A DNA stretch of 20,125 bases from a virus, in the IMG/VR virus record IMGVR_UViG_3300046028_000940, positions 1 through 20,125 of that record; one strand, given 5' to 3'. The position numbers and the translations under genes are program-made. This document shows positions 818 to 16,302 of this stretch, piece by piece. How positions within the stretch are numbered: the stretch's first letter is position 1; each line of letters starts with the position of its first letter. The notes below the pieces were generated by a model that saw only the letters and a program-made list of their open reading frames with translations, was not told the DNA's origin and did not search any database.

Positions 818-1651
818 TTATTTATTTGGAACACAGTTAGGAACTTGCTTACCACCCTTATCTTTCATGCCAACTTGCTTATATCCTTTCCAACAAGGGC
901 CATCTTCTTTTACCAATGATTCGTTTGCAGCTGCTTGGTAATCTTTTAACCATTTTTTATAATAGTTAATTAAATCTAAGTTTAGTGCTATTGATTTTTT
1001 AATATTTTCTTTTTTGGTGCTTGGTAAACTTTTATTATCTTTAAGTTGTTGTACTAATAGTTTAATAGTTTCTTCCAAGTTTTTAATCAACATTTCCAAT
1101 CTCTTTGTTTCGGAATCTTCGTTTATAGTACCTTCTCCAAACATACCTACAAAATTACCTTGATATTTGTTACCAGGTTTTCCACTTAATGCTGTTGCGA
1201 AGTCCATTCTATCTTTTAACTTTCCTTTAGATATAAAGTTAAAAAGCTTTTTAGCGTTCAAATTAAAATCATCTATAAATTTTTGTACTGCAATTGCACG
1301 AGTACCAGTAAATCCAGCAATTCCCATTGCTTCTCTACCAGCTCCTTCATTTACCGATTCATTTGTTCCGTATTCGTGATAGTTAGATGATGCTTGAGAA
1401 ATGAAGTTTTCTGCATTTGTAATATGGTCTTGAATCCAAGCAGGAATATCCTTTTCGTTTTCTCCCATCTTAGATTTCAATTCAGTAGCCATCTTAATAA
1501 TAGTATCTAATGAATTGTTTGCCATAGAAACTTCGTGGTCTTCACCTTCTCCTTCTTTAATGAATGCGTTTGCGAATGGATTTGAAATTACTTTACCCAT
1601 TTCAAATTTACCAAATGCTTTTTGAGATACTAAACCACCTAAACGAATCAT
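818..1651 (-). CDS. Modular head-associated protein with C-terminal CWxGY...NCVP tag
   Basis: 277 aa, starting 2 bp after the preceding gene's stop. No enzyme motif is recognisable. Four parts are visible: an N-terminal segment to about residue 33 ending FIKE|G; a helical module at 36-95 (DHEVSM at 38-43); a module at 103-178 (GREAMGIAGFTG onward); and a coiled coil at 180-240. A small C-terminal tag at 252-277 begins CWKGYKQVGMK and ends NCVP. The junctions carry Glu-rich linkers resembling prohead-protease sites: IKE|G (31-34), VNE|G (100-103), INE|D (176-179) and VKE|D (247-250). I recall the first module and the Cys tag from other T4-like phage proteins, but not with a known function. Position between protease and scaffold suggests a prohead core or internal head protein. 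The product name is inference. Confidence 0.6.
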   Translation of the reverse strand: MIRLGGLVSQKAFGKFEMGKVISNPFANAFIKEGEGEDHEVSMANNSLDTIIKMATELKSKMGENEKDIPAWIQDHITNAENFISQASSNYHEYGTNESVNEGAGREAMGIAGFTGTRAIAVQKFIDDFNLNAKKLFNFISKGKLKDRMDFATALSGKPGNKYQGNFVGMFGEGTINEDSETKRLEMLIKNLEETIKLLVQQLKDNKSLPSTKKENIKKSIALNLDLINYYKKWLKDYQAAANESLVKEDGPCWKGYKQVGMKDKGGKQVPNCVPNK

Positions 1652-2207: not shown

Positions 2208-2804
2208 TTATGCTATTTCAGTTATTATTTCTCTCATTAAGTCTTGTGCTTTACAGAAGTCTCCGCAAACATCAGTTCCAATTTGTTGTAAACCTTTATT
2301 AACCGATTCGTTTACAGGTACCATAAATGCACCATGTGTAGATGGGTTAGATACGAAATCCCAACCTATCAATTCAAAATCTTCTTGTACCTCTACTTTG
2401 TTTCCAGATAAGTTACGAGTAGAACCCATACCTCTTGATGAAATACCTAATAGGATACCAGCTTTCAATAATTCTTTTAAGATATTACCAGATGGAGTAG
2501 ATAGAACTTCAACAGTTCCACATAAATCATCACCGTCCCAATGAATCTCTCTAATATTGTGAGAAACATTCTTTAAGTTAATTACAGTAGAATCCGGATG
2601 GTCTAATTCACCTAATGCTCTACGCTCTTTGATGAATACCTCATATTTCTTAGCTTCTCTCATTAGGATTTCTTTCGGATAAATTCTTCCGTTTTGATTT
2701 TCAGCACCAGCTCTTTGTAGAATACCTTTAACAATGGTTCTTCCACCTTCATCTTCTTGTACCTTTCCCTCAAATAATTTTGTTTCTATTAAAAGATTCT
2801 TCAT
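2208..2804 (-). CDS. 21: Prohead core protease, gp21-like
   Basis: 198 aa serine protease of the T4 gp21 type, which cleaves scaffold, capsid and internal head proteins during prohead maturation. Visible family landmarks are the substrate-fold segment NGRIYPKEIL (38-47), the catalytic-type His in LGELDHPD (His69), and the Ser-containing GISSRGMGS (120-128; Ser122 or Ser123). The conserved strand ELIGWDFVSNPS follows at 144-155. Its own N-terminus contains LIE|T and LFE|G, which fit the L/I-x-E preference of such proteases and suggest self-processing. The C-terminal 35 residues (with ESVNKG and two Cys) go beyond the core and may also be removed. It lies 14 bp after the 233-aa gene and 2 bp before the 183-aa gene. 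In T4 the scaffold gene follows directly; here two other genes intervene. Confidence 0.88.
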   Translation of the reverse strand: MKNLLIETKLFEGKVQEDEGGRTIVKGILQRAGAENQNGRIYPKEILMREAKKYEVFIKERRALGELDHPDSTVINLKNVSHNIREIHWDGDDLCGTVEVLSTPSGNILKELLKAGILLGISSRGMGSTRNLSGNKVEVQEDFELIGWDFVSNPSTHGAFMVPVNESVNKGLQQIGTDVCGDFCKAQDLMREIITEIA

Positions 2805-5048: not shown

Positions 5049-6830
5049 TTAAAATTTACTGTCATCTAACAGATTATTTTCATCCAAAAGGTCAGTTTTT
5101 TCAGTTTTTTCACTTAAAATCTTCTTTTTTGCAGAAATTCCGTTTATATATTCTTGTGCTATTTTCTTATTTGATTCATTTGTACGAGTTTCTCTCTTTC
5201 TCTCTTTCTCATTTTCTTTGTTTCCCAATGGGTCTCTACCTAATGGATGTTTATCTTTACCATATGTATTTCCCTCTCTTGGTCTGCCACCTTTATTATC
5301 AACAATCTCCTGCTTCATTTTTTCAATCTCCTCCTCTACATTTTGTTGTTGTGGTGGATTGGCAGGGTCTTGTCCTTGCTGTTCAATTGAATTATATCTG
5401 AAACGGTCTTTAAGGTCTAAAACTAATTTAGCTCTCTCTATATCCATCTCATCTTCACTCATACCAAACACATTATGGTAAACCCAATCAGTAGATAACA
5501 TATTTAATCCTTTCATATCAGTTGCTAATCTAACCTTCTCACTCCAAAGATTTACTTTCTCTTGCTCATATATTGTAGAAGCGTTTGTTAAAGTAAGTTG
5601 GAAATTTGTCATTTCCGAATCATCAATACCTTGTCCAGCTAAGTGTACAATTGCAATCTTATATAATTCACTAACGATTGTTCTTTGAATTCTTTCAATA
5701 GTTCTAGCAAAACGAACATCTTGTGCTGCTAAAGTTGCTTTACCATTTACATCTTCTTCATATCCTAAAAATGCTTTAGGTATTTTAAGTGCTGCAAATA
5801 ATTTGGCTTTTAAATAATCAATATCCTCTATTGCCGTATATTCCAATCCAGACAAGTTGTCAATTGAAGTACCACTATCTCCACCTCTAACCGGTAAGAA
5901 GAAATCTTCCGTAAGGTTTTGGATATTGTATTTTAAATTATAATCACCTGTATTTTTATCAACAAATGGAGTTTTCTTCATTTTGTTAATAATCTTTTGC
6001 ATGTAGTTATCTACTTCATTAGGATTAATATTACCAATATCAATTTTGAATATTCTTTTTTCAGGTGCTCTCATAATACGATGGATTAACATCGCATCTT
6101 CCATTAATTGTAATTGTTTCCAAACTCTACGGCCGTTCTCAATCATAGCCTTACCATATGGTAGAAAGTTTGTATCTGATAGTAAACGGAAGTGAGCTAT
6201 TTCATAGTTCTCATATTCCTTTTTACCAAATCTATCTAATTCAACTTTAAACTTAACATAGTTTTGATTCATTGGGTCAGTACCTTCCAATCTTTCCGTA
6301 TTATATACAGAGTATGGAGTTACATTAATAATACCCTTACCTTCTGCCATTTCTAATGCTAAAAAGAAGTCACCATATTTTACTAAGTTTCTAGTCCAAG
6401 GCCAAAGATTAAATTCTATGTTTATAATATCATAAAATAGGTTATGTAGTATAGCACTTACATTTTCGTTTGATGATTTGATTGCTAATATATCACCATA
6501 TTCATTCTTTGTTGTAGATTCATCCGAATATATATCTAATGCAGATGCTATAATTGGGTCATTATCCATAGCATCATAATCTCTGAATAATTCTCTACGA
6601 ACCTGATGGTATGCCATTGATTGTGCACCCTGATTGGTTTCGTAATATGACCTTTGTAATTTTGTATATCTATCTCTAAGATTTACAAAGTTCGTACTCA
6701 TTTGCTTCTCATCCGTATCAACAACTCTACGCTTACCATCTTTGTCAACGGTAACAATAGCATTTGTTGAAAATAATTTCTTTAGTCTACCAAAAAAACT
6801 TTTACTGTCATCTAATTCTTGTTCTGCCAT
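5049..6830 (-). CDS. 20: Portal vertex protein, gp20-like
   Basis: 593 aa, somewhat longer than T4 gp20. It forms the dodecameric ring at one capsid vertex through which terminase pumps DNA and to which the neck and tail attach. Matches to the gp20 family include DPIIASALDIYSDEST (around 91-106), a MRAPEKRIFKIDIGNI segment (near 260) followed by the helix with KIINKMKK, an SGLEYTAIEDIDYLKAKL region, and ALKIPKAFLGYE. The last 100 residues are a polar, Lys/Glu-rich tail with a Gln/Pro stretch and GGRPREG, probably disordered. The final LLDENNLLDDSKF contains L-x-E sequences. No Shine-Dalgarno is seen; the leader is A/T-rich. It follows terminase directly: the tail sheath and tube genes that lie between them in T4 are absent here. 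Confidence 0.9.
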   Translation of the reverse strand: MAEQELDDSKSFFGRLKKLFSTNAIVTVDKDGKRRVVDTDEKQMSTNFVNLRDRYTKLQRSYYETNQGAQSMAYHQVRRELFRDYDAMDNDPIIASALDIYSDESTTKNEYGDILAIKSSNENVSAILHNLFYDIINIEFNLWPWTRNLVKYGDFFLALEMAEGKGIINVTPYSVYNTERLEGTDPMNQNYVKFKVELDRFGKKEYENYEIAHFRLLSDTNFLPYGKAMIENGRRVWKQLQLMEDAMLIHRIMRAPEKRIFKIDIGNINPNEVDNYMQKIINKMKKTPFVDKNTGDYNLKYNIQNLTEDFFLPVRGGDSGTSIDNLSGLEYTAIEDIDYLKAKLFAALKIPKAFLGYEEDVNGKATLAAQDVRFARTIERIQRTIVSELYKIAIVHLAGQGIDDSEMTNFQLTLTNASTIYEQEKVNLWSEKVRLATDMKGLNMLSTDWVYHNVFGMSEDEMDIERAKLVLDLKDRFRYNSIEQQGQDPANPPQQQNVEEEIEKMKQEIVDNKGGRPREGNTYGKDKHPLGRDPLGNKENEKERKRETRTNESNKKIAQEYINGISAKKKILSEKTEKTDLLDENNLLDDSKF

Positions 6831-6894: not shown

Positions 6895-8490
6895 CTACAA
6901 CCATTGGGATAAATCCTCAAAATCATCCCCAACTCTCATTTTCCAAGGGTTATCATTCATTGTATCATTACCACCATAAATCCCTTGAGATGTATTTGAT
7001 GTTATACCACTTACCGCTTGTTTGGTTAAATCAATACCCTCTTGTCTTAAACGAAGTGCGGTATCTCTAACCCATAATCCAATTGATATAGCCATAACTA
7101 AGTCATCGTTATAACCTTTCATTGCTTCAGCTCTACCATTCATATAAATAAACGTAAATAATTCATCTATTAAACGAGATGAACGAATTATAATTGATTT
7201 CTCTCTAAAGTAATCAGTTAATTTAGATATGATTAAAGGTCTAGTCTTAGAAGTTGTTGAAAACCCAGCTACTAATCCCTTTTCTTCACTTCTATATCTA
7301 TTTGTCATTTGATGTTGTATATCAATGTATTTTAAATCCTTACTCATATAGAATAAGTTTTTATATCCTCTATCAATTACTTGCTGAATTGTTGCCCAAC
7401 CAATATTTGCGTTCTCTATTACAAGTAATGCATCATTATATTCTGTTGAAAGTGCTACTAAAAAGTTTCCAAAATCTTTAGTGTCCACCTTACCTCTATA
7501 TTCTGCAACCTGTACGGAATTCACAATATCAATTACATGACAAGTAGAATAATCGGCACCATCTCCTCTAGCCACATCGGCCACTACCATATACGATTTA
7601 GAATAATCAGCATGCTCCCATTTCCAAAGATTTCCATCAAACCCACCTTTCTCAACTGGTGGTATTACATATGTTTCTTTATAAAACATTAATAATTCAG
7701 GTTCAATTACAGTTTCACCAGAAGATATAAAATCACAATCACATTCTTGTGCTGCTTTCTTTGTACCTAATAGCTTCTCTTGTTCATCTCTCCATTTTTG
7801 GTCTCTTTCAGGATGAACTGTCCAATGTAATCTGATTGTATTAAATGGATTTGTACTTTCTTCCGCACCTAACCAAGTTTGATGAAACCAATTACCCACA
7901 CCATTCGGAGTAGATAATGCTATACAACTACCACCCGTTGATAAGGTTGATTGAGCCGATACCCAAATCTCATCAATATCATCAATGAAAGCTGCCTCAT
8001 CAAATATAAGAAGTGATAATGCTTCAGAACGTCCTGCATCAGGAGATGAAGCAATAGCCTTAATTTGAGAACCATTTTGTAAACGAAGGGAAAGTTTGTT
8101 ATCTTCCATAGACCCACCTTTAAGCCATGTTGGAAGCAAATCATGCATTACTCTAACTTTAGTTACTAAGTTCTTTGCCACTTCTTGCTTTGTTGCAATT
8201 ACCAACACATTAAAATCCGTATTGAATATCATCTTCCAAAGTGAAAACCCAGCACAAAGTGTTGAGATACCAGTTTGTCTTGATTTTAGAACTACGTTAA
8301 ATCTATTATCTTTAAATTGTGTTAAAGTCTTTTCCTGAAATGGGAATAATTGAAATGGTATCTTACCTCTAACAGGATGTTGAATCATACAATACTTCTT
8401 CATAAAATGTATTGGGTCTACCGCACATTTTTTGTATTCTTCTGCAATAATCTCTTTTAAAGATTTCTTTTGTGTTATACCAGTACTCAT
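6895..8490 (-). CDS. 17: Terminase large subunit (ATPase and nuclease), gp17-like
   Basis: 531 aa DNA-packaging motor. The N-terminal ATPase has a Walker A variant KSRQTGIST (69-77), Walker B LLIFDEAA (160-167, catalytic Glu165) and a coupling motif STP (193-195). The C-terminal RNase H-like nuclease has acidic residues in VVADVARGDG (Asp305), VIENAN (Glu359) and NDDLVMA (Asp462/463), matching the three-acid site of T4 gp17. It is a little shorter than T4 gp17 (about 610 aa). The ATG lies one base after the stop of the zinc-finger gene upstream, so the two are translationally coupled, and the portal follows after 64 bp. All key catalytic positions are present, so it should be active. Confidence 0.93.
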   Translation of the reverse strand: MSTGITQKKSLKEIIAEEYKKCAVDPIHFMKKYCMIQHPVRGKIPFQLFPFQEKTLTQFKDNRFNVVLKSRQTGISTLCAGFSLWKMIFNTDFNVLVIATKQEVAKNLVTKVRVMHDLLPTWLKGGSMEDNKLSLRLQNGSQIKAIASSPDAGRSEALSLLIFDEAAFIDDIDEIWVSAQSTLSTGGSCIALSTPNGVGNWFHQTWLGAEESTNPFNTIRLHWTVHPERDQKWRDEQEKLLGTKKAAQECDCDFISSGETVIEPELLMFYKETYVIPPVEKGGFDGNLWKWEHADYSKSYMVVADVARGDGADYSTCHVIDIVNSVQVAEYRGKVDTKDFGNFLVALSTEYNDALLVIENANIGWATIQQVIDRGYKNLFYMSKDLKYIDIQHQMTNRYRSEEKGLVAGFSTTSKTRPLIISKLTDYFREKSIIIRSSRLIDELFTFIYMNGRAEAMKGYNDDLVMAISIGLWVRDTALRLRQEGIDLTKQAVSGITSNTSQGIYGGNDTMNDNPWKMRVGDDFEDLSQWL

Positions 8491-9226: not shown

Positions 9227-12200
9227 TTATTTTGCGAAGAAAATACCTAAAATTTGATTTAGGGGTGCGAATGCACCTGTTAATTTGTAAGTGTTACCGC
9301 CATATACGAATACCAAGCCCTCATTTGGTACAATTTTATCAAATCCACCCAATGCTTGCATTCTACTCAATTCTAATTTAAGTTTTGCAATCTTTTTAGG
9401 GTCACCACTTGCTTTAACATCTGCTATTGTACTTTCCAAACGAGCTAACATTTGTTTAGTAGCCTGTTTTGGATTTGCTGTCAATACCGAATCCATAAAT
9501 GATAAAACGTCTGCACCAACTCCTAAAAATATTTCCTCAAATCTCATTAGATTTTGTTTTGATATTTTAGCTTGGTCATTCTTATCGGTTGTATCTGCCC
9601 ATTTTTGTATCTTAGGGTCTTTTATATCTGCTATACGGAAACTCTTATCACCAAAAGCCCATCTTTTAACTAATCCTATTTTTTGCTGTGCATCCAAACT
9701 CTTTGCACCTTTATTTACAAAGTTTGTCCACCAAGCTTGATGATAATCAGCTACTCCCGATTTATCATTTAATGCAAATTCAGATTGTAATTTAGTTATC
9801 ATTCCCAAATACTTTCCTTGCAATTTATAAAGGTCTTCCGATTTAGGTAATTTTTGCATTGGAGGTCCCTGAATTGTATATTTGGATTGAACATGTGCAT
9901 TTACTTGCTTAATCATTCCACCTAATACTTTTGCAGCTTCTTGATTCTCGCCTACTATAACACCCTCTCTATCATATTCAAACGTACCATGAAATACTAA
10001 TAGGGGTTGGTTGTATGGGATTACGTTTACTGATGTTGGATATATTACTTCCAAATTCATAAAACATGCACCATCCTTAAAAACCTTCTTACGTTGGGGT
10101 TCGGATAGTGCTGATATTGCTGCTGATAAATCTTTCATTGCGAAATTATATGCATCAGTCAATCCGCCCCTACCTCCAAACTTTTCAGCTACTTGTCCTA
10201 TTGTCATAGCACCTTCACCTTTGTTCTTTAGGTGTGATTTGTTACGAGCTGCAACTAATCTTCCATTTACCCAACTAATTGCTAATGCTTGTCCATCAGT
10301 TTTTTCTCTTACAGTTTCCAAATCACCATTTAGTGCTTTAGTTACAATATTTTTTAAATCTGCAAAAGTAAGATTCATTTCAATATCAAATGGATGGTTC
10401 ATATGCCCATAAGCACCACCCTCAACTAATAATTCCTCTTTAAGAAAATCTTGTGGTAATTTTAAATCATGCTTTAATATACGATTGTACTTATCAGTTG
10501 TATCATTATGATTATCTATTGGTAATTTTTGGTCTACTGCTTTTTTCTTTTCTCTTTCAGATGGTGTTTTATCAAAAAAGTTCCAGCCTTCTAAATTATC
10601 TAAATAATATCCTTCATTATCATAATCATCCCAATTTGCATTCCACATCGTACCGCTTGTTGCGTTACCATCATTGTAGAAAGCCCCATTACCACTTGCT
10701 TCAGCTATACTATCACCTTCAATACTTGCCAACTTTTGATAATAATTTATATCTTCCCATAAATGGTCCATTGCTATTTCGGCTGCATATCTAATATCAG
10801 ATGTATGCTCCATTTCAACTCTAATACCATTTATCAATTTAGGTTTAATATATTCTGCTGCAAATTGCTTTGGTTCGTAATATCCTTTAGAATCCCACTT
10901 ATTAGCCAAATCAATTAAAGTTTTACCATTTGCCAAACCACCAGGAATTTTATCATTCATTTCTTTAACAGGCTCATATCCTTTATTTTGTGTATCTTTA
11001 GTATCGGCTTGATGACCAGGTTTTTTTTCTCTATCATCATCAAAATCAATTGTATCCAATTCTGCTTCATAACCCCAATCAGGTGTGTACATTCCACCTT
11101 TATGATGTTTGTTAAAATCATCATCTGCCCCACCAGAATCAACAGGTATGTGATTTTTTACAGTAGTTACTTCTTTTACTTTAGTATATTCATCACTATC
11201 ATCACCATCCAATTTAGATTTTAATTTCTTAACATCTTTAGTATTAGGTGCCCCATTAATATATCCACCCGGTAAACTCAAACCTACACCAGATCCGCCG
11301 GGAAATCCCATTTCATCTAATATGGAATCAAAATCAGAAACTATTTCTTTAATATCTTCTTTTGAAATTATTGTATCTTTTTGATTATCAGGCAATTCCC
11401 AAAATCTTTTAGGTTTATCTATTGCTTTATTTGGTTCGGTTTCTTGCCAATCCTCAACAGTATGTGGGTCATCTGCAGGATTCAATGTACTTTGTGTTAC
11501 ATTCTTAAGTTTATAATAAGCTTTTCTGAATTGCGTTTCTGTATCTTTTGATTTTCCTCTACCTCTCATAGAATCTGCTTTAGGAGTATCTATTTGAGTA
11601 TATCCACCTTGCTTATACCAACCTTCAGGCTTAGCTTTATTTAATATTCTAGGTTGTCCATCTGCTACAAATGATGTATCAGGTTCATCACCGGCAGTCA
11701 TACCAGCATTACTAGCAGCTTCTTTTAATTCTTCTTTTTTAGGAATTCTAAATGTTGCTACCTTCTTACCATTGATTGTTGGCATTCCCCAATCATCAGT
11801 TCCTATTGTTTTTACAACTACTTTTTTATTTTTAAATCTACCCATTAGAATAGTATCTCCAATTTTTACATTTATTTTAATTTCCTCATTAATACATTCT
11901 TTTAAACTCTTTAACTTAAGGGTAATTAATTTGAATATTTGTTCATCAAATTTAGGATATGCTTTTGTAAAGTTTTTCTTTCTATCAGCAGCGCTTCCAG
12001 CACTTAACCAATATCTAACATCAGTACCACTTATAGGATTTGCAGTAGCTGGAGATGCGTAAACATATCCTCTATCTAAATAAGGTTCAGTTACTTTACC
12101 TTTATATGGTGTGAAATATTTACCACTAAGTCTTTGCTTATCTTTCTCACCAACTACAACTATTAAACCAGTTGTATCTTCATCGTATTTATTTAGAATT

Positions 12201-12496
12201 TCTTCAGGTGCATATGGATTTCTGATATTGACAATTTTGTTTGATGGGATACCAAACATGTTTGTCATTATTGCTTTTTTCTCTTTAAAATTAAATGGAG
12301 ATTTCTTTGAATCGGTAACATTAGAAGTTCCGATGTAAACACTATCCTTTCCGAATTTCTTTACTAAATTATCATAAGTTGCGTAATGGCCCTTATGAAA
12401 AGGTTGAAAGCGGCCCGAATAAACAACTATTACTTTGTTTATGGAGTCCGCTTCCAATAATATTGATTCTGCTAAAAAATTTGATAATCCGTTCAT
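9227..12496 (-). CDS. NadM-like adenylyltransferase fused to ligase-like nucleotidyltransferase (1089 aa)
   Basis: Residues 20-190 are a HxGH-type nucleotidyltransferase: GRFQPFHKGH (28-37) and ISGTDVR (155-161) match NadM-type NMN adenylyltransferases, which make NAD+ from NMN and ATP. Residues 205-252 look like a small SH3-like beta domain (KIGDTILMGRFKNKKV). The middle (260-540) is mostly low-complexity; 545-592 resembles the phage domain I know as DUF5661 (EMEHTSDIRYAAEIAMDHL). Residues 694-1089 resemble a domain recalled as DUF6267 and carry ligase-superfamily motifs: EKTDG with candidate nucleophile Lys732, ARNKSH (Arg751), NLEV (Glu816), EGLVFV (Glu1059) and YKLTG (Lys1071). The N-terminus SNFLAES resembles T4 capsid-targeting peptides, and L/I-x-E sites lie near domain borders, so it may be packaged and cut. 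The order of domains is clear; substrate and cleavage are inference. It is followed by the terminase genes. Confidence 0.8.
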   Translation of the reverse strand: MNGLSNFLAESILLEADSINKVIVVYSGRFQPFHKGHYATYDNLVKKFGKDSVYIGTSNVTDSKKSPFNFKEKKAIMTNMFGIPSNKIVNIRNPYAPEEILNKYDEDTTGLIVVVGEKDKQRLSGKYFTPYKGKVTEPYLDRGYVYASPATANPISGTDVRYWLSAGSAADRKKNFTKAYPKFDEQIFKLITLKLKSLKECINEEIKINVKIGDTILMGRFKNKKVVVKTIGTDDWGMPTINGKKVATFRIPKKEELKEAASNAGMTAGDEPDTSFVADGQPRILNKAKPEGWYKQGGYTQIDTPKADSMRGRGKSKDTETQFRKAYYKLKNVTQSTLNPADDPHTVEDWQETEPNKAIDKPKRFWELPDNQKDTIISKEDIKEIVSDFDSILDEMGFPGGSGVGLSLPGGYINGAPNTKDVKKLKSKLDGDDSDEYTKVKEVTTVKNHIPVDSGGADDDFNKHHKGGMYTPDWGYEAELDTIDFDDDREKKPGHQADTKDTQNKGYEPVKEMNDKIPGGLANGKTLIDLANKWDSKGYYEPKQFAAEYIKPKLINGIRVEMEHTSDIRYAAEIAMDHLWEDINYYQKLASIEGDSIAEASGNGAFYNDGNATSGTMWNANWDDYDNEGYYLDNLEGWNFFDKTPSEREKKKAVDQKLPIDNHNDTTDKYNRILKHDLKLPQDFLKEELLVEGGAYGHMNHPFDIEMNLTFADLKNIVTKALNGDLETVREKTDGQALAISWVNGRLVAARNKSHLKNKGEGAMTIGQVAEKFGGRGGLTDAYNFAMKDLSAAISALSEPQRKKVFKDGACFMNLEVIYPTSVNVIPYNQPLLVFHGTFEYDREGVIVGENQEAAKVLGGMIKQVNAHVQSKYTIQGPPMQKLPKSEDLYKLQGKYLGMITKLQSEFALNDKSGVADYHQAWWTNFVNKGAKSLDAQQKIGLVKRWAFGDKSFRIADIKDPKIQKWADTTDKNDQAKISKQNLMRFEEIFLGVGADVLSFMDSVLTANPKQATKQMLARLESTIADVKASGDPKKIAKLKLELSRMQALGGFDKIVPNEGLVFVYGGNTYKLTGAFAPLNQILGIFFAK

Positions 12497-12982: not shown

Positions 12983-14131
12983 TTATAAGAATTTTTCTAA
13001 TTCTTTTATTACCATTTCTGATGTTATTGATTTTGTACACTCAAATTGTCTATCCGTTCCTTTATGGTCAGGACACCAATTCCAATCACCAGCATCTAAA
13101 CGAATTCTATTGAAGCAACCCTCACATTTTCCTTTAGGTGCTGCTATTCTAATACAATCTTGCATTTCCGCCCAATCATATGAGAATCCGCTAATCAGTA
13201 CAGTAGGAACATTCAAACTCCAGCTTAACCAACTCAACCCACTACCAATACCTATAAATGCTTTTGATTTTAACATTTCATCCATAACCAATTCCAATGG
13301 GCCGTTTGGATGCTGAACTATTCCTTTTGGTAATTTATTTCCCATATAATCATCACCCTCTTTAGATAATAATTTAACCGTATATCCTTTATTGTTTAAC
13401 CAATCTACTACATCTTGCCATCCAGTTGTATTATTCCAAAATTTAGATTGCGCAGTACCAAATACACCAATACAAACTTGTTTAAGCTTTGTGTCTATTT
13501 TAACATTTCTTTTTTTAATTAAAGTTTTTACTTCTTTGAAATCTAGTCCCAATATATCAGAACACATTTTTTGCATTGTTTGCGTCTTTGGGTCAATTGG
13601 GTTTTTAAAGAAGTTTATAGAGTTATCATCATTATAAAATAATCCAACACAATACATTGCGTATAAATTTTCAACTGCTTTGCCAGGTTCTACAAATTTT
13701 ACATTAGGATATCTTTCTTCAAACATATGATTCATAAATGTAGAAGTTATAACTTCACAATTGTGTTTCTTTCTAAATTCTTCAACATATGAAACCCAAG
13801 CCAATGAATCACCTAAAGCCTTTGAATCCATTGCTATATAAACACGTTTACCTTTTGAATTATAAACATATTCGTGCCATATTTTATCATTTTGATAAAT
13901 AGCAATTTTCCATTCTACAAAATATTCTATACTACATTTACACCAACAATTATTTTTTATATTTGTAGAATAGTGTACCTTTCCAGTTTTATTATCTATA
14001 AATTTAACTGTGTATTGTGAATCTATGTTTCCTTTAATTTCAACATATGGTCCTTTAACAAAATGAATTATCACTTTATTTTTTACCTCAACTATATTAT
14101 TTTTATTTTTCTTTAAATTATCGTATATCAT
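12983..14131 (-). CDS. TibC/BAHT-like glycosyltransferase with Cys4 iron-finger
   Basis: 382 aa from the ATG at 14131. That ATG overlaps the upstream stop as TAATG and has GGAG just before it; the TTG nine bases earlier is a poorer choice. The protein resembles bacterial autotransporter heptosyltransferases (TibC/Aah), GT-B enzymes that transfer ADP-heptose to Ser/Thr of adhesin repeats. Evidence: AMDSKALGDSLAWVSYVEEF (100-119) with the expected catalytic Asp108; the GT-B donor-site region FIGIGSGLSWLSWSLNVP (292-309); and four cysteines C336, C339, C353 and C365, spaced like the TibC iron-finger. The N-terminal 95 residues form a beta-rich domain as in that family. Heptose specificity cannot be told from sequence; other sugars are possible. 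It is translationally coupled to the three-domain enzyme upstream. The likely target is the phage tail fibre or a host surface protein. Confidence 0.78.
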   Translation of the reverse strand: MIYDNLKKNKNNIVEVKNKVIIHFVKGPYVEIKGNIDSQYTVKFIDNKTGKVHYSTNIKNNCWCKCSIEYFVEWKIAIYQNDKIWHEYVYNSKGKRVYIAMDSKALGDSLAWVSYVEEFRKKHNCEVITSTFMNHMFEERYPNVKFVEPGKAVENLYAMYCVGLFYNDDNSINFFKNPIDPKTQTMQKMCSDILGLDFKEVKTLIKKRNVKIDTKLKQVCIGVFGTAQSKFWNNTTGWQDVVDWLNNKGYTVKLLSKEGDDYMGNKLPKGIVQHPNGPLELVMDEMLKSKAFIGIGSGLSWLSWSLNVPTVLISGFSYDWAEMQDCIRIAAPKGKCEGCFNRIRLDAGDWNWCPDHKGTDRQFECTKSITSEMVIKELEKFL

Positions 14132-16302
14132 TAACTCCAAGTTTTAACTGTTAAATCCAATAAAGAGAATCCCTCTGCTTGCTTACTATACATTTTGTTT
14201 GTTGTATATCTTGGTCTTGGGTGATTGATAAATACATGATTATACCAAAGGTCACCAACATCCCATCCGCAATCTTTAAGTCTATCTGCCCACCATTGCT
14301 TTTCTCTATTTGGAATTAAATAACAATGTGCAAGGTCTTGATTTGCTGCTGTCTTTGAAAACAACTCATCTATTTTTTCTTTTTCTCTTGATGGATTATC
14401 TGCAAATGATATGAATGGTACATTATCTCTTTCCGATAGGAAACATGCTCTATGTACTATTTCAACGAATTCTTCCAAACCAGTATAGATAAATGCATCA
14501 GCTTCAAATACTAAAGTGTAATCAAATTTTTCAGTATCCATAGTTTCTAATGCCATTCTATGCGCCAAATAACAACCATAATGTCTACCAGTCATCCAAC
14601 CCAAACCAGCACCAGGGTATAATTCTCCCGGCTTATTATCTTTACTTATATGTTCAGGTCTTCTACAATTTTCAGCGGGTGCAAATCCTTCATATGGTTG
14701 GTTTACAATTGGTTCGTAATACATACCATATTTTTCCAATTGTTTAATAGATTGAATAGATACTCTTTCTCTCATATCATCTGGTCTAGTCAACATATGC
14801 TTTATTTGAATACGAGGTTTCTTACGAATGAATGAACGAAATCCTTTATCAAACTGCTCATAGAAAAATTCATTTGCTGCTTGTGTTACTCCGTGAAATA
14901 CACCATAGTCATCTCCACTAATAATTCCACCTGGTTTCACTTTGTTGTACCAAACTTTTACATCTTCCATCAATGAATCATATGAATGCCCAGCATCTAA
15001 CATAATAAAATCTATACTACCATTTTGGAATTGATTAGCTGCATTATGCGAAGTATCTTTGATTGTATCAAACGTACCATAGTTATCTGATAGAACTGTA
15101 TTATCTATAAATTCATAAAATATATCTCCATTAAATGCTCCAACAATATTTTGATGCAATTCCTCATCATCAGTACCTTTCCAAGTATCTACCGATGTAA
15201 ATTTAATATCCTTACCAGACTCTTTAATTTTTGCGGCTAAATGATTTGTTGATTTGCCAAACCATGCTCCAACTTCTACAAACGTTTCTCCACCTTTAGC
15301 GGATTCAACCATTTCATTATATAAATCGGTATATGCAAACCAACCTGGTATTTCATTAAATTCAGGTTGTAAAGTTTCTAATATAACTCGTTTAGTTAAT
15401 TTTAAATCATCATCAATATAAGTAACTAAACTATTATTATCATAGGTATCCAAATATGTATGTAACTTTCTAAATATAGAAGGTAATTTATATGATAGAG
15501 CTTCTTTAACTGATAATGGATTTAGTTCTATTTTAGAAGCAAAATAAAACATATCACTTGCTGCATAGAATGTATCAACATCAGTCCTTTCACCCCATAT
15601 AACACAATTTTCAGGTTTATAATCCATTAAAGGTCTCCAATAGTGTTCAAAGTTTCCAGCTTGATTTCCTACAAAATGAAATTTAATTTTATATTTTTCT
15701 AATTGTCTTGCTATCGCAAATATTTCACCTTGATTTTTACCAGGTGCAAATAATCCAACATTTAATACGTGTTTGTATGATGGGTCTAATCCTAATTCTT
15801 TTTGTGCAGCTTCCTTATCAAATGTGTATTCTTCAATTGGATATTCCCATAAATCAGTTTCAACCCCAGTTTCAATAAATCTTTGTCTACTCCATTCAGA
15901 TACTAAAATATATCTATCGGGATGATAAACTATTTCAGATGGATTTGTTAATGAACCATGTGTAGATGCTACAATAAAATAAGGTCTATCTTGTCTAAAA
16001 ATAACGTCTAATGCAAATAATGGTAAATCAAATTGTGGGATTTCCTGAAAATGAATTATATCAGGTTTAAAATCCTCAATTATTTGTAATATCCTAGATT
16101 TATCTTCTGCCAATGTGTGTATTGGTACTAAAGATTTAATTCTATCTTTTTGAACTACAAAAGCAGTACCTCCACTATTGTTTATTTCAACAACTTCAAT
16201 TTCAAAATCTTTAATGAATTCTTTTACCTGCTTATATAGGTATTGTGGTTGTCCCCCAGTAGAAAGATGAGGAGCAACATAAAGTAACTTCTTTTTAGAC
16301 AT
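14131..16302 (-). CDS. Three-domain glycosyltransferase-methyltransferase-glycosyltransferase
   Basis: 723 aa. Residues 1-320 are a GT-B (GT4-like) glycosyltransferase: glycine-rich STGGQPQYLY (14-23), the interdomain NVGLFAPGKNQGE (181-193) and an E-x7-E-type donor site ELNPLSVKEALSYKLPSI (259-276). Residues 335-480 are a class I SAM-dependent methyltransferase: FVEVGAWFGKST (341-352), then MLDAGHSYDSLMEDVKVW (434-451) and KPGGIISGDDY (456-466). Residues 525-723 look like a GT-A domain of the GT25 type: GCYLAHRMALE (576-586) and a metal-binding LVFEADAFI (597-605). It would build and methylate a glycan. The start at 16302 lies just downstream of a host-type promoter, and the TibC-like gene is coupled at its end. 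Sugars and acceptor are unknown; the third domain is the least certain. Confidence 0.8.
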   Translation of the reverse strand: MSKKKLLYVAPHLSTGGQPQYLYKQVKEFIKDFEIEVVEINNSGGTAFVVQKDRIKSLVPIHTLAEDKSRILQIIEDFKPDIIHFQEIPQFDLPLFALDVIFRQDRPYFIVASTHGSLTNPSEIVYHPDRYILVSEWSRQRFIETGVETDLWEYPIEEYTFDKEAAQKELGLDPSYKHVLNVGLFAPGKNQGEIFAIARQLEKYKIKFHFVGNQAGNFEHYWRPLMDYKPENCVIWGERTDVDTFYAASDMFYFASKIELNPLSVKEALSYKLPSIFRKLHTYLDTYDNNSLVTYIDDDLKLTKRVILETLQPEFNEIPGWFAYTDLYNEMVESAKGGETFVEVGAWFGKSTNHLAAKIKESGKDIKFTSVDTWKGTDDEELHQNIVGAFNGDIFYEFIDNTVLSDNYGTFDTIKDTSHNAANQFQNGSIDFIMLDAGHSYDSLMEDVKVWYNKVKPGGIISGDDYGVFHGVTQAANEFFYEQFDKGFRSFIRKKPRIQIKHMLTRPDDMRERVSIQSIKQLEKYGMYYEPIVNQPYEGFAPAENCRRPEHISKDNKPGELYPGAGLGWMTGRHYGCYLAHRMALETMDTEKFDYTLVFEADAFIYTGLEEFVEIVHRACFLSERDNVPFISFADNPSREKEKIDELFSKTAANQDLAHCYLIPNREKQWWADRLKDCGWDVGDLWYNHVFINHPRPRYTTNKMYSKQAEGFSLLDLTVKTWS

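Follow-up and report, generated by a model that had tools for sequence, protein, structure and literature searches.

A phage protein of 1089 amino acids (aa), encoded in the 20,125-nucleotide window analysed here (the whole of IMG/VR virus record IMGVR_UViG_3300046028_000940, a contig of that length), is probably packaged in the head and cut internally after L/I-x-E, the cleavage rule of the T4 prohead protease gp21 (PMC9026906). From comparison of the protein with its relatives, we put the probability of packaging plus internal cutting at roughly 70%. An earlier sequence-only reading of the window had described a single open reading frame (ORF) joining an NadM-like adenylyltransferase, a small beta module, DUF5661 and a ligase-like nucleotidyltransferase, and had suggested that cleavage in the prohead releases these as separate enzymes for injection; the ORF (9227..12496, minus strand, ATG start) and its domain order were found as described, and the suggested release, in which cutting and injection are both conjectural steps, is supported. 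We judge the sites to lie beyond chance on account of their conservation pattern in homologues, the statistics of the single protein being weak, while the strongest sign of packaging appears to be a leader whose positions 4, 7, 8 and 10 match the map drawn for T4.

L/I-x-E sites at module junctions

An IMG/VR pattern search returned 519 matches, of which 517 encode relatives of the polyprotein, on contigs of up to 289 kb; the best 80 of the 517 were kept. The 1089-aa protein contains [LI]xE twelve times, ending at Glu 10, 15, 200, 204, 259, 384, 395, 581, 599, 687, 692 and 799. The five sites named earlier (10, 200, 259, 599 and 692) are all exact, and the linkers hold further ones at 15, 204, 384, 395 and 687. 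The predicted full-length structure has blocks at 21–198, 209–246, 520–591 and 708–1085 in which the predicted local distance difference test (pLDDT) is mostly above 50 and nowhere reaches 90. Ten of the twelve sites are found where pLDDT is below 50, although such segments make up 46% of residues (P 0.01), in line with the earlier statement that they lie near module borders. This placement between predicted domains is mildly unusual, in a model that is itself poor (pLDDT 51.8, predicted template modelling score 0.35, thin alignment) and in which low pLDDT does not prove disorder.

The homologue alignment proposed as a check of the earlier reading was carried out, and showed that linkers are replaced wholesale while P3 Leu/Ile and P1 Glu of the ligase junction are fixed. 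Among 57 distinct 12-residue windows, drawn from 155 of 159 loci, all 57 have [LI]xE just ahead of the ligase-like domain, with eight different residues at P2, and a Glu at P6, five residues upstream of the junction Glu, is present in 53. The site before the GNGAFYNDG module is likewise [LI]xE in 18 of 18 distinct windows; the tabulated windows are offset by one position, which puts this Glu under P1' and gives a raw score of 0 of 18. In a 21-row alignment, the leader sites were kept in 20/21 (Glu10) and 21/21 (Glu15) rows, those behind the N-terminal domain in 21/21 (200) and 19/21 (204), and those further along in 11 of the 12 rows that have the residue (259), 10/15 (384), 18/19 (395), 10/13 (599) and 16/21 (687); site 692, which as claimed directly precedes the ligase-like domain, was kept in 21/21. 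Two interior sites are also conserved, 581 within DUF5661 (15/15) and 799 within the ligase-like domain (19/21). These look structural because P2 is mostly aromatic in relatives at 581 and always Ser at 799, where P1' is Pro in the 1089-aa protein.

A T4-type leader

In T4, leader residues 4 and 7 serve targeting, and residues 8 and 10 processing (PMC9026906). Among 38 distinct leaders of the polyprotein family, Leu4, Phe/Tyr7 and Leu8 are each present in 36, Glu10 in 35 and Glu15 in 34; where several start Met were possible, this count favoured the one that puts E, D or N at residue 10. In 33 loci the start codon was set by alignment, and each has the same leader type. At least one [LI]xE lies within the first 16 residues in 38/38 leaders, a list judged by eye. 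Three loci (L150, L153 and L154) have a short form, MNLNE/ or MNLSE/ (a slash marks the putative cut), and L153 is counted among the 35 with Glu10, although its leader is atypical.

Middle modules are shuffled between relatives

We compared 57 non-redundant full-length polyproteins, obtained from 93 linkers by requiring both end domains in one ORF; Microcystis phage Mel-JY01, the one named isolate in which we found the NMNAT–ligase fusion (with IIAE ahead of GGLGGHM), was left out of this set, and L083 was missed by the pattern. Scored by the order of 21 marker motifs, which are short patterns of our own making, the 57 proteins fall into 36 architectures, with linkers of 192 to 1256 aa. The beta module is marked in 56 proteins and DUF5661 in 36; other markers include zinc ribbons in seven, HExxH in three, a ParB-like module in two and GNAT in one (Pfam acetyltransferase matches stayed below cut-off). 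The 1907-aa chain of L181, which is not among the 57, has a tRNA nucleotidyltransferase module (Pfam PolyA_pol, E 1.5e-29; PHROG, E 1.6e-57). A middle stretch of L155:2692-7197 and L153:2500-7188, by position the GFFKRL module, weakly resembles the T4 RegB endoribonuclease (E 0.031 and 0.042, below cut-off).

Break points, that is, places between unrelated flanks, lie close to [LI]xE more often than expected. After deduplication, which gives the fair figure, 26/117 left ends fell within 3 aa of a site against 8.8% at random (standard deviation, sd, 1.6), and 21/112 right ends against 8.6% (sd 1.2), an enrichment of 2.2- to 2.5-fold. Two earlier forms of the test were rejected. One, based on gapped BLAST ends, gave 1.9-fold enrichment but 2.1-fold for [VMF]xE; the other was sharper (left 92/317 vs 29 expected, right 58/355 vs 33) but counted related linkers repeatedly, and at left ends other motifs were also enriched ([LI]xD 2.3-fold, [AGST]xE 2.2-fold, ExL 2.9-fold). 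Across the linkers, [LI]xE stands at 1.7 times and [LI]xD at 0.75 times the shuffle value.

The same modules occur as separate genes

The ligase-like domain, DUF5661 and the 260–395 module are separate genes elsewhere, with leaders holding [LI]xE. The separate ligase-like genes begin with MIRL..[IL]LNEVLLKE/GG in L132, L134 and L135, with MKFLKSYEEFLNENLILE/GG in L084, a 462-kb uncultured phage, and with MKSLIQYISE...ILE/GG in L186, a 410-kb contig (ONIZ01000001.1) filed as an uncultured Firmicutes bacterium. Polyprotein L151 has an internal MIRLKKLLNEVLLTE/GG that closely resembles the leader found on the separate genes. L132 and L139 share 96.4% identity across 953 upstream residues; the ligase of L132 is a gene of its own that starts at an overlapping ATGA, whereas that of L139 forms part of the chain, behind one extra module. 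A DUF5661 gene with its own leader is found in L084 and in Flavobacterium phage immuto, there joined to one further module, and part of the 260–395 region is a separate gene in L183 with the leader MNKLLKE/ (43% identity over part, E 3e-5).

Starts of the form M-x5-[FYIL]-[LI]-x-E were found in 8/18 genes of L186 and 1/10 of L187, with 0.18 expected by shuffling for the 28 together, and L186:1-13188 probably belongs to a huge phage that encodes many of its head-cargo proteins there as separate genes. Such starts are rarer in seven head blocks of closer relatives (12/112 genes, the polyprotein included in four blocks). Three candidates for splitting were set aside: L079 as a separate ligase gene, where an in-frame TAG lies close to the contig end; L106, with broken frames; and L031, with a stop at 798-800. 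In-frame stop codons in otherwise intact relatives (L079:96-98; L031 near 2693) could be error, polymorphism or recoding.

The end domains resemble nucleotidyltransferases

In the 1089-aa protein, CTP_transf_like (PF01467) at residues 25–161 (E 1.2e-7) and DUF5661 (PF18905) at 556–593 (E 5e-7) exceed their curated Pfam cut-offs. The N-terminal domain also gave a phmmer match to nicotinamide mononucleotide (NMN) adenylyltransferase (E 3.9e-4), and Foldseek placed it with HIGH adenylyltransferases of several substrates (best E 0.009, probability about 1), including PPAT, NaMNAT and FAD synthetase structures. It contains GRFQPFHKGH and ISGTDVR, which we take to be the HIGH-fold signatures (H/T)xGH and SxTxxR, and the core motifs are kept in the aligned distant relatives except Mel-JY01. 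Several relatives have another small HIGH-type nucleotidyltransferase gene close to that of the polyprotein (L106:4218-4625, G001:C1:247590, G002:C1:92077 and G007:C1:44172).

The C-terminal ~400 aa matched nothing in Pfam or PHROG; the best matches of its structural model (pLDDT 82.7) are RNA ligases, but weak ones. All of the top eight Foldseek rows were RNA ligases, seven of them one enzyme, at weak scores (E 0.11–0.43, template modelling score below 0.2). With VIA-align the best RNA ligase reached Z 5.3 over residues 44–172 of the domain (98 aligned, root-mean-square deviation 4.0), and unrelated ion channels reached Z 4.4 for another part. In the KxDG motif, E40, K41, D43 and G44 are invariant in 10 rows, and K41 of the model (K732 of the full protein) falls on K92 (8uch), K99 (5tt6), K35 (2hvq) and K170 (5cou) of RNA ligases, lysines that have been mutated or are known in these four enzymes, once the aligned ranges are extended back by 1–3 residues; K35 of 2hvq is presumably the catalytic lysine. 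No Pfam RNA ligase scored above cut-off in the window, PF09414 appeared in L183 only (E 0.027, below cut-off), and when the ligase profile was run as a hidden Markov model against PDB sequences, no useful match came out. Profile comparison with DUF6267, considered as a possible member of the family of the ligase-like domain, aligned the KxDG motifs at weak similarity (probability 2.3%, P 0.02). A DUF6267-like gene with K[WY]DG lies beside or near a HIGH nucleotidyltransferase gene in cyanophage loci L192-L197 and L200 and in Stenotrophomonas phage DLP6 (L190), and among the DUF6267-like genes only the DLP6 copy has a clear leader, MKFTQFLAE/S.

Protease, capsid and virion proteins of relatives

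As the sequence-only reading had stated, a prohead protease is encoded in the same block: the S77 (gp21-type) gene at 2208-2804. An S77 protease is present in 8/8 related records, and a gp23-type capsid gene in 7/7 long ones. In the capsid proteins of six relatives, the propeptides (368 aa in total) carry 26 [LI]xE, compared with 23 in the 2901 aa of mature sequence; the genes come from six of the seven blocks, one falling outside the search pattern, and the propeptide end was set by eye before GTSxGSEEW.

Shorter relatives of the N-terminal domain have been detected in cyanophage virions. Published lists of virion proteins include a putative citidylyltransferase (T4-GC190; PMC3037559), S-CREM2 ORF154 with three unique peptides (PMC10665884), S-SZBM1_140 and _139 (PMC9146016) and an NMNAT in S-SCSM1 (PMC9602691). 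Two of the detected NMNAT-like proteins begin with MKNFSSFLTE/A in S-CREM2 and MRFRQFIIE/A in S-SZBM1, and 7 of 10 nucleotidyltransferase genes of named phages, Mel-JY01 included, have [LI]xE in the first 14 residues. The link between these proteins and the window is at family level (PHROG cytidyltransferase, PF01467), not along the whole chain. In six of six cyanophage loci fetched via DUF6267, the nucleotidyltransferase gene adjoins the DUF6267 gene; S-CREM2 is without such a neighbour.

Proposed mechanism and alternatives

We propose that internal head proteins are made from the gene product as their precursor. Judged by its conserved positions, the stretch of residues 1–10 would be a T4-type capsid-targeting signal by which the chain enters the prohead core. 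There the S77 protease of the same block would cut the linkers behind L/I-x-E, with 10/15, 200/204, 259, 395, 599 and 687/692 as the minimum set of cut points. The products released within the head would be an NMNAT-like enzyme, the beta module, DUF5661 and the ligase-like domain, which would then enter the host along with the DNA. Because each module sits between cut sites, phages could gain or swap modules without disturbing the neighbours. More tentatively, the conserved ends may serve nucleotide and RNA repair, so as to offset NAD depletion or tRNA cleavage by the host as infection begins, a suggestion drawn from the combination of a HIGH adenylyltransferase, an RNA-ligase-like domain and one relative's tRNA nucleotidyltransferase module; this task of the cargo is less certain than packaging plus cutting. 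A broader version, which we would place somewhat short of even odds, is that T4-type jumbo phages use their prohead protease as a polyprotein protease for a cargo array, in which exchangeable effectors (NMNAT-like, RNA-ligase-like, tRNA nucleotidyltransferase, acetyltransferase-like, ParB-like, zinc-ribbon and others) share one leader, are cut apart and are injected as a time-zero repair and counter-defence kit, with the same cargo encoded elsewhere as separate leader-tagged genes.

A number of observations weigh against packaging and cutting or against the assigned functions. Twelve [LI]xE in the 1089-aa protein compare with a shuffle mean of 8.6 (sd 2.7, P 0.14), bearing out the earlier caution that such sites are common by chance in Glu-rich proteins; since shuffles give a similar number, the count by itself is no evidence, and it was dropped as proof. 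Depletion of [LI]xE in the NMNAT domain was also discarded, as [LI]xD, LE and LxxE are depleted there too. In the linkers, ExL is about as enriched as [LI]xE, at 1.6 times the shuffle value. About four-fifths of the deduplicated break points lie away from [LI]xE, and two controls exceeded every random draw, [KR]xE at right ends (19/112 vs 8.1%) and [LI]xK at left ends (25/117 vs 14.9%), which none of the remaining control motifs of the six did. At the ligase site, distant relatives provide exceptions (LLLM/GG in L183 and L184, VME/GG in L187, none in L083), and several middle regions of the 1089-aa protein, with pLDDT below 50, may be disordered spacers. The virion reports cover only the shorter cyanophage relatives of the N-terminal domain; purification carry-over of such enzymes is possible, as warned in PMC10665884 and PMC9602691, and three of the ten named-phage genes (S-H9-1, ACG-2014e and S-RIM44) have no such leader as annotated. 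On the enzymatic side, Mel-JY01 lacks the HxGH motif and has GIHH instead, and NadV was found in only 1/7 related records, which may be incomplete, whereas every NadM phage surveyed in PMC9503650 has NadV.

Some of these points would also fit a chain that loses only its leader and is injected whole as one multi-enzyme, unprocessed polyvalent protein, with the inner motifs as linker helices or leader fossils. The near-chance motif count and the missing ligase site of L183 and L184 suit such a chain, and the N4 virion RNA polymerase and ArdC are precedents for packaging or transfer without cutting (PMC5512222); we nevertheless consider it unlikely, as linker helices alone need no pattern in which P3 and P1 are fixed and P2 varies, as seen before the ligase-like domain (57/57) and GNGAF (18/18), and as the ligase-like domain is elsewhere a protein of its own, with this site at the leader. 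A slightly less likely possibility is that the middle modules serve as prohead core or spacer and are degraded and lost, which would leave the NMNAT-like and ligase-like domains as the sole cargo. In T4, gp21 is reported to cut scaffold and core proteins into many fragments, residues 247–519 and 592–707 are predicted at pLDDT below 50, and what stays constant among the 57 polyproteins is the pair of end domains, though that set was chosen to hold both; DUF5661, however, is a conserved predicted domain, and a middle module of one relative is a clear enzyme, the tRNA nucleotidyltransferase. Least probable, and in our view very improbable, is a cytoplasmic fusion enzyme expressed with late genes and never packaged. 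NMNAT-type enzymes also act in salvage pathways (PMC9503650), and packaging in the phage of the 1089-aa protein is deduced indirectly, but the T4-type leader, the head gene block and the presence in virions of proteins that bear leaders and are related to the N-terminal domain all speak against this.

Relation to known systems

Packaging and internal cutting of the polyprotein would combine features that are known apart: capsid-targeting leaders, prohead proteolysis and injected multidomain proteins appear here together. The T4 internal proteins IPI-III and Alt share with it a 10-residue leader with the same division between targeting (4/7) and processing (8/10), L/I-x-E and the S77 protease gp21, but the T4 accounts consulted give every cargo protein a leader of its own, whereas here a single leader serves many modules, with further sites between these. 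Polyvalent proteins, which PMC5512222 itself likens to RNA-virus polyproteins, have 2–15 disparate domains per chain, late-gene context, rampant shuffling and inferred injection. Their release is proposed to involve embedded zincin peptidases, whereas the candidate here is a separately encoded S77 protease acting at L/I-x-E. The 1089-aa protein has two of the hallmarks, disparate shuffled domains and virion-gene neighbours, and not the embedded metallopeptidase, which is a recurrent rather than a universal trait of polyvalent proteins; no peptidase family is among its Pfam matches. In SPN3US and phiKZ, as far as the published accounts available to us go, the prohead protease cuts several packaged head proteins after a Glu motif, sometimes in multiple places; those cuts remove propeptides, whereas here they would separate domains. 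The cyanophage NMNAT-like virion proteins (T4-GC190, S-CREM2 gp154 and S-SZBM1_140) offer a HIGH adenylyltransferase, the [LI]xE leader of the 7/10 named-phage genes and virion detection, and differ in being shorter and without a ligase-like domain in the same chain. In titles and abstract openings of the open-licence literature (subscription papers and preprints lying outside this scope), we found no description of such a chain, and in the open-licence literature nothing on Mel-JY01 or DUF5661.

If the polyprotein is indeed cut in this way, a head protease acts as a polyprotein protease and modules are exchanged between its cut sites, which would explain how head cargo diversifies. L/I-x-E borders would then provide a simple rule by which packaged effectors could be recognised in hundreds of uncultured phages, the functions of many domains of unknown function would become testable as injected proteins, and T4-type protein delivery would gain natural examples.

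Gene neighbourhood

The S77 protease, portal and terminase genes lie on the same strand as the polyprotein gene and form a T4-type head block. PADLOC gave nothing in the 1089-aa protein and weak matches in two of four relatives.

Table 1. Predicted parts of the 1089-aa polyprotein and head genes of the window.
Feature	Position	Strand	Basis
Capsid-targeting-like leader, residues 1–10, end FLAE/S, second site Glu15	12467..12496	-	leader conservation
NMNAT-like HIGH adenylyltransferase, residues 16–200, GRFQPFHKGH and ISGTDVR	11897..12451	-	PF01467, phmmer, Foldseek
Small beta module, residues 205–259, flanked by sites 204/259	11720..11884	-	predicted block 209–246; in 56/57 polyproteins
Optional region, residues 260–395, sites 384 (inside) and 395 (end)	11312..11719	-	marker in 31/57
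GYINGAP (45/57) and HHKxxxYxPD (13/57) modules, residues 396–512	10961..11311	-	pLDDT < 50
DUF5661 module, residues 513–599, end SIAE/A	10700..10960	-	PF18905, E 5e-7
Optional GNGAFYNDG module, residues 600–692, end FLKE/ELLVE/	10421..10699	-	marker in 14/57
Ligase-like nucleotidyltransferase, residues 693–1089, predicted nucleotidyl lysine K732 in EKTDG	9230..10420	-	
S77 prohead protease (gp21 type), candidate cutter	2208..2804	-	Pfam E 4.4e-27, PHROG E 1.3e-50
T4-type portal protein	5049..6830	-	Pfam E 1.3e-65
Terminase large subunit	6895..8490	-	

Elsewhere in the window, the product of 818-1651 (minus strand) has a C-terminal CWKGY...PNCVP module that is by eye also present in the virion-detected S-CREM2 gp160 and S-SZBM1_139. 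At 14131-16302 (minus strand), a 723-aa fusion joins a glycosyltransferase, a methyltransferase and a further, weakly glycosyltransferase-like part.

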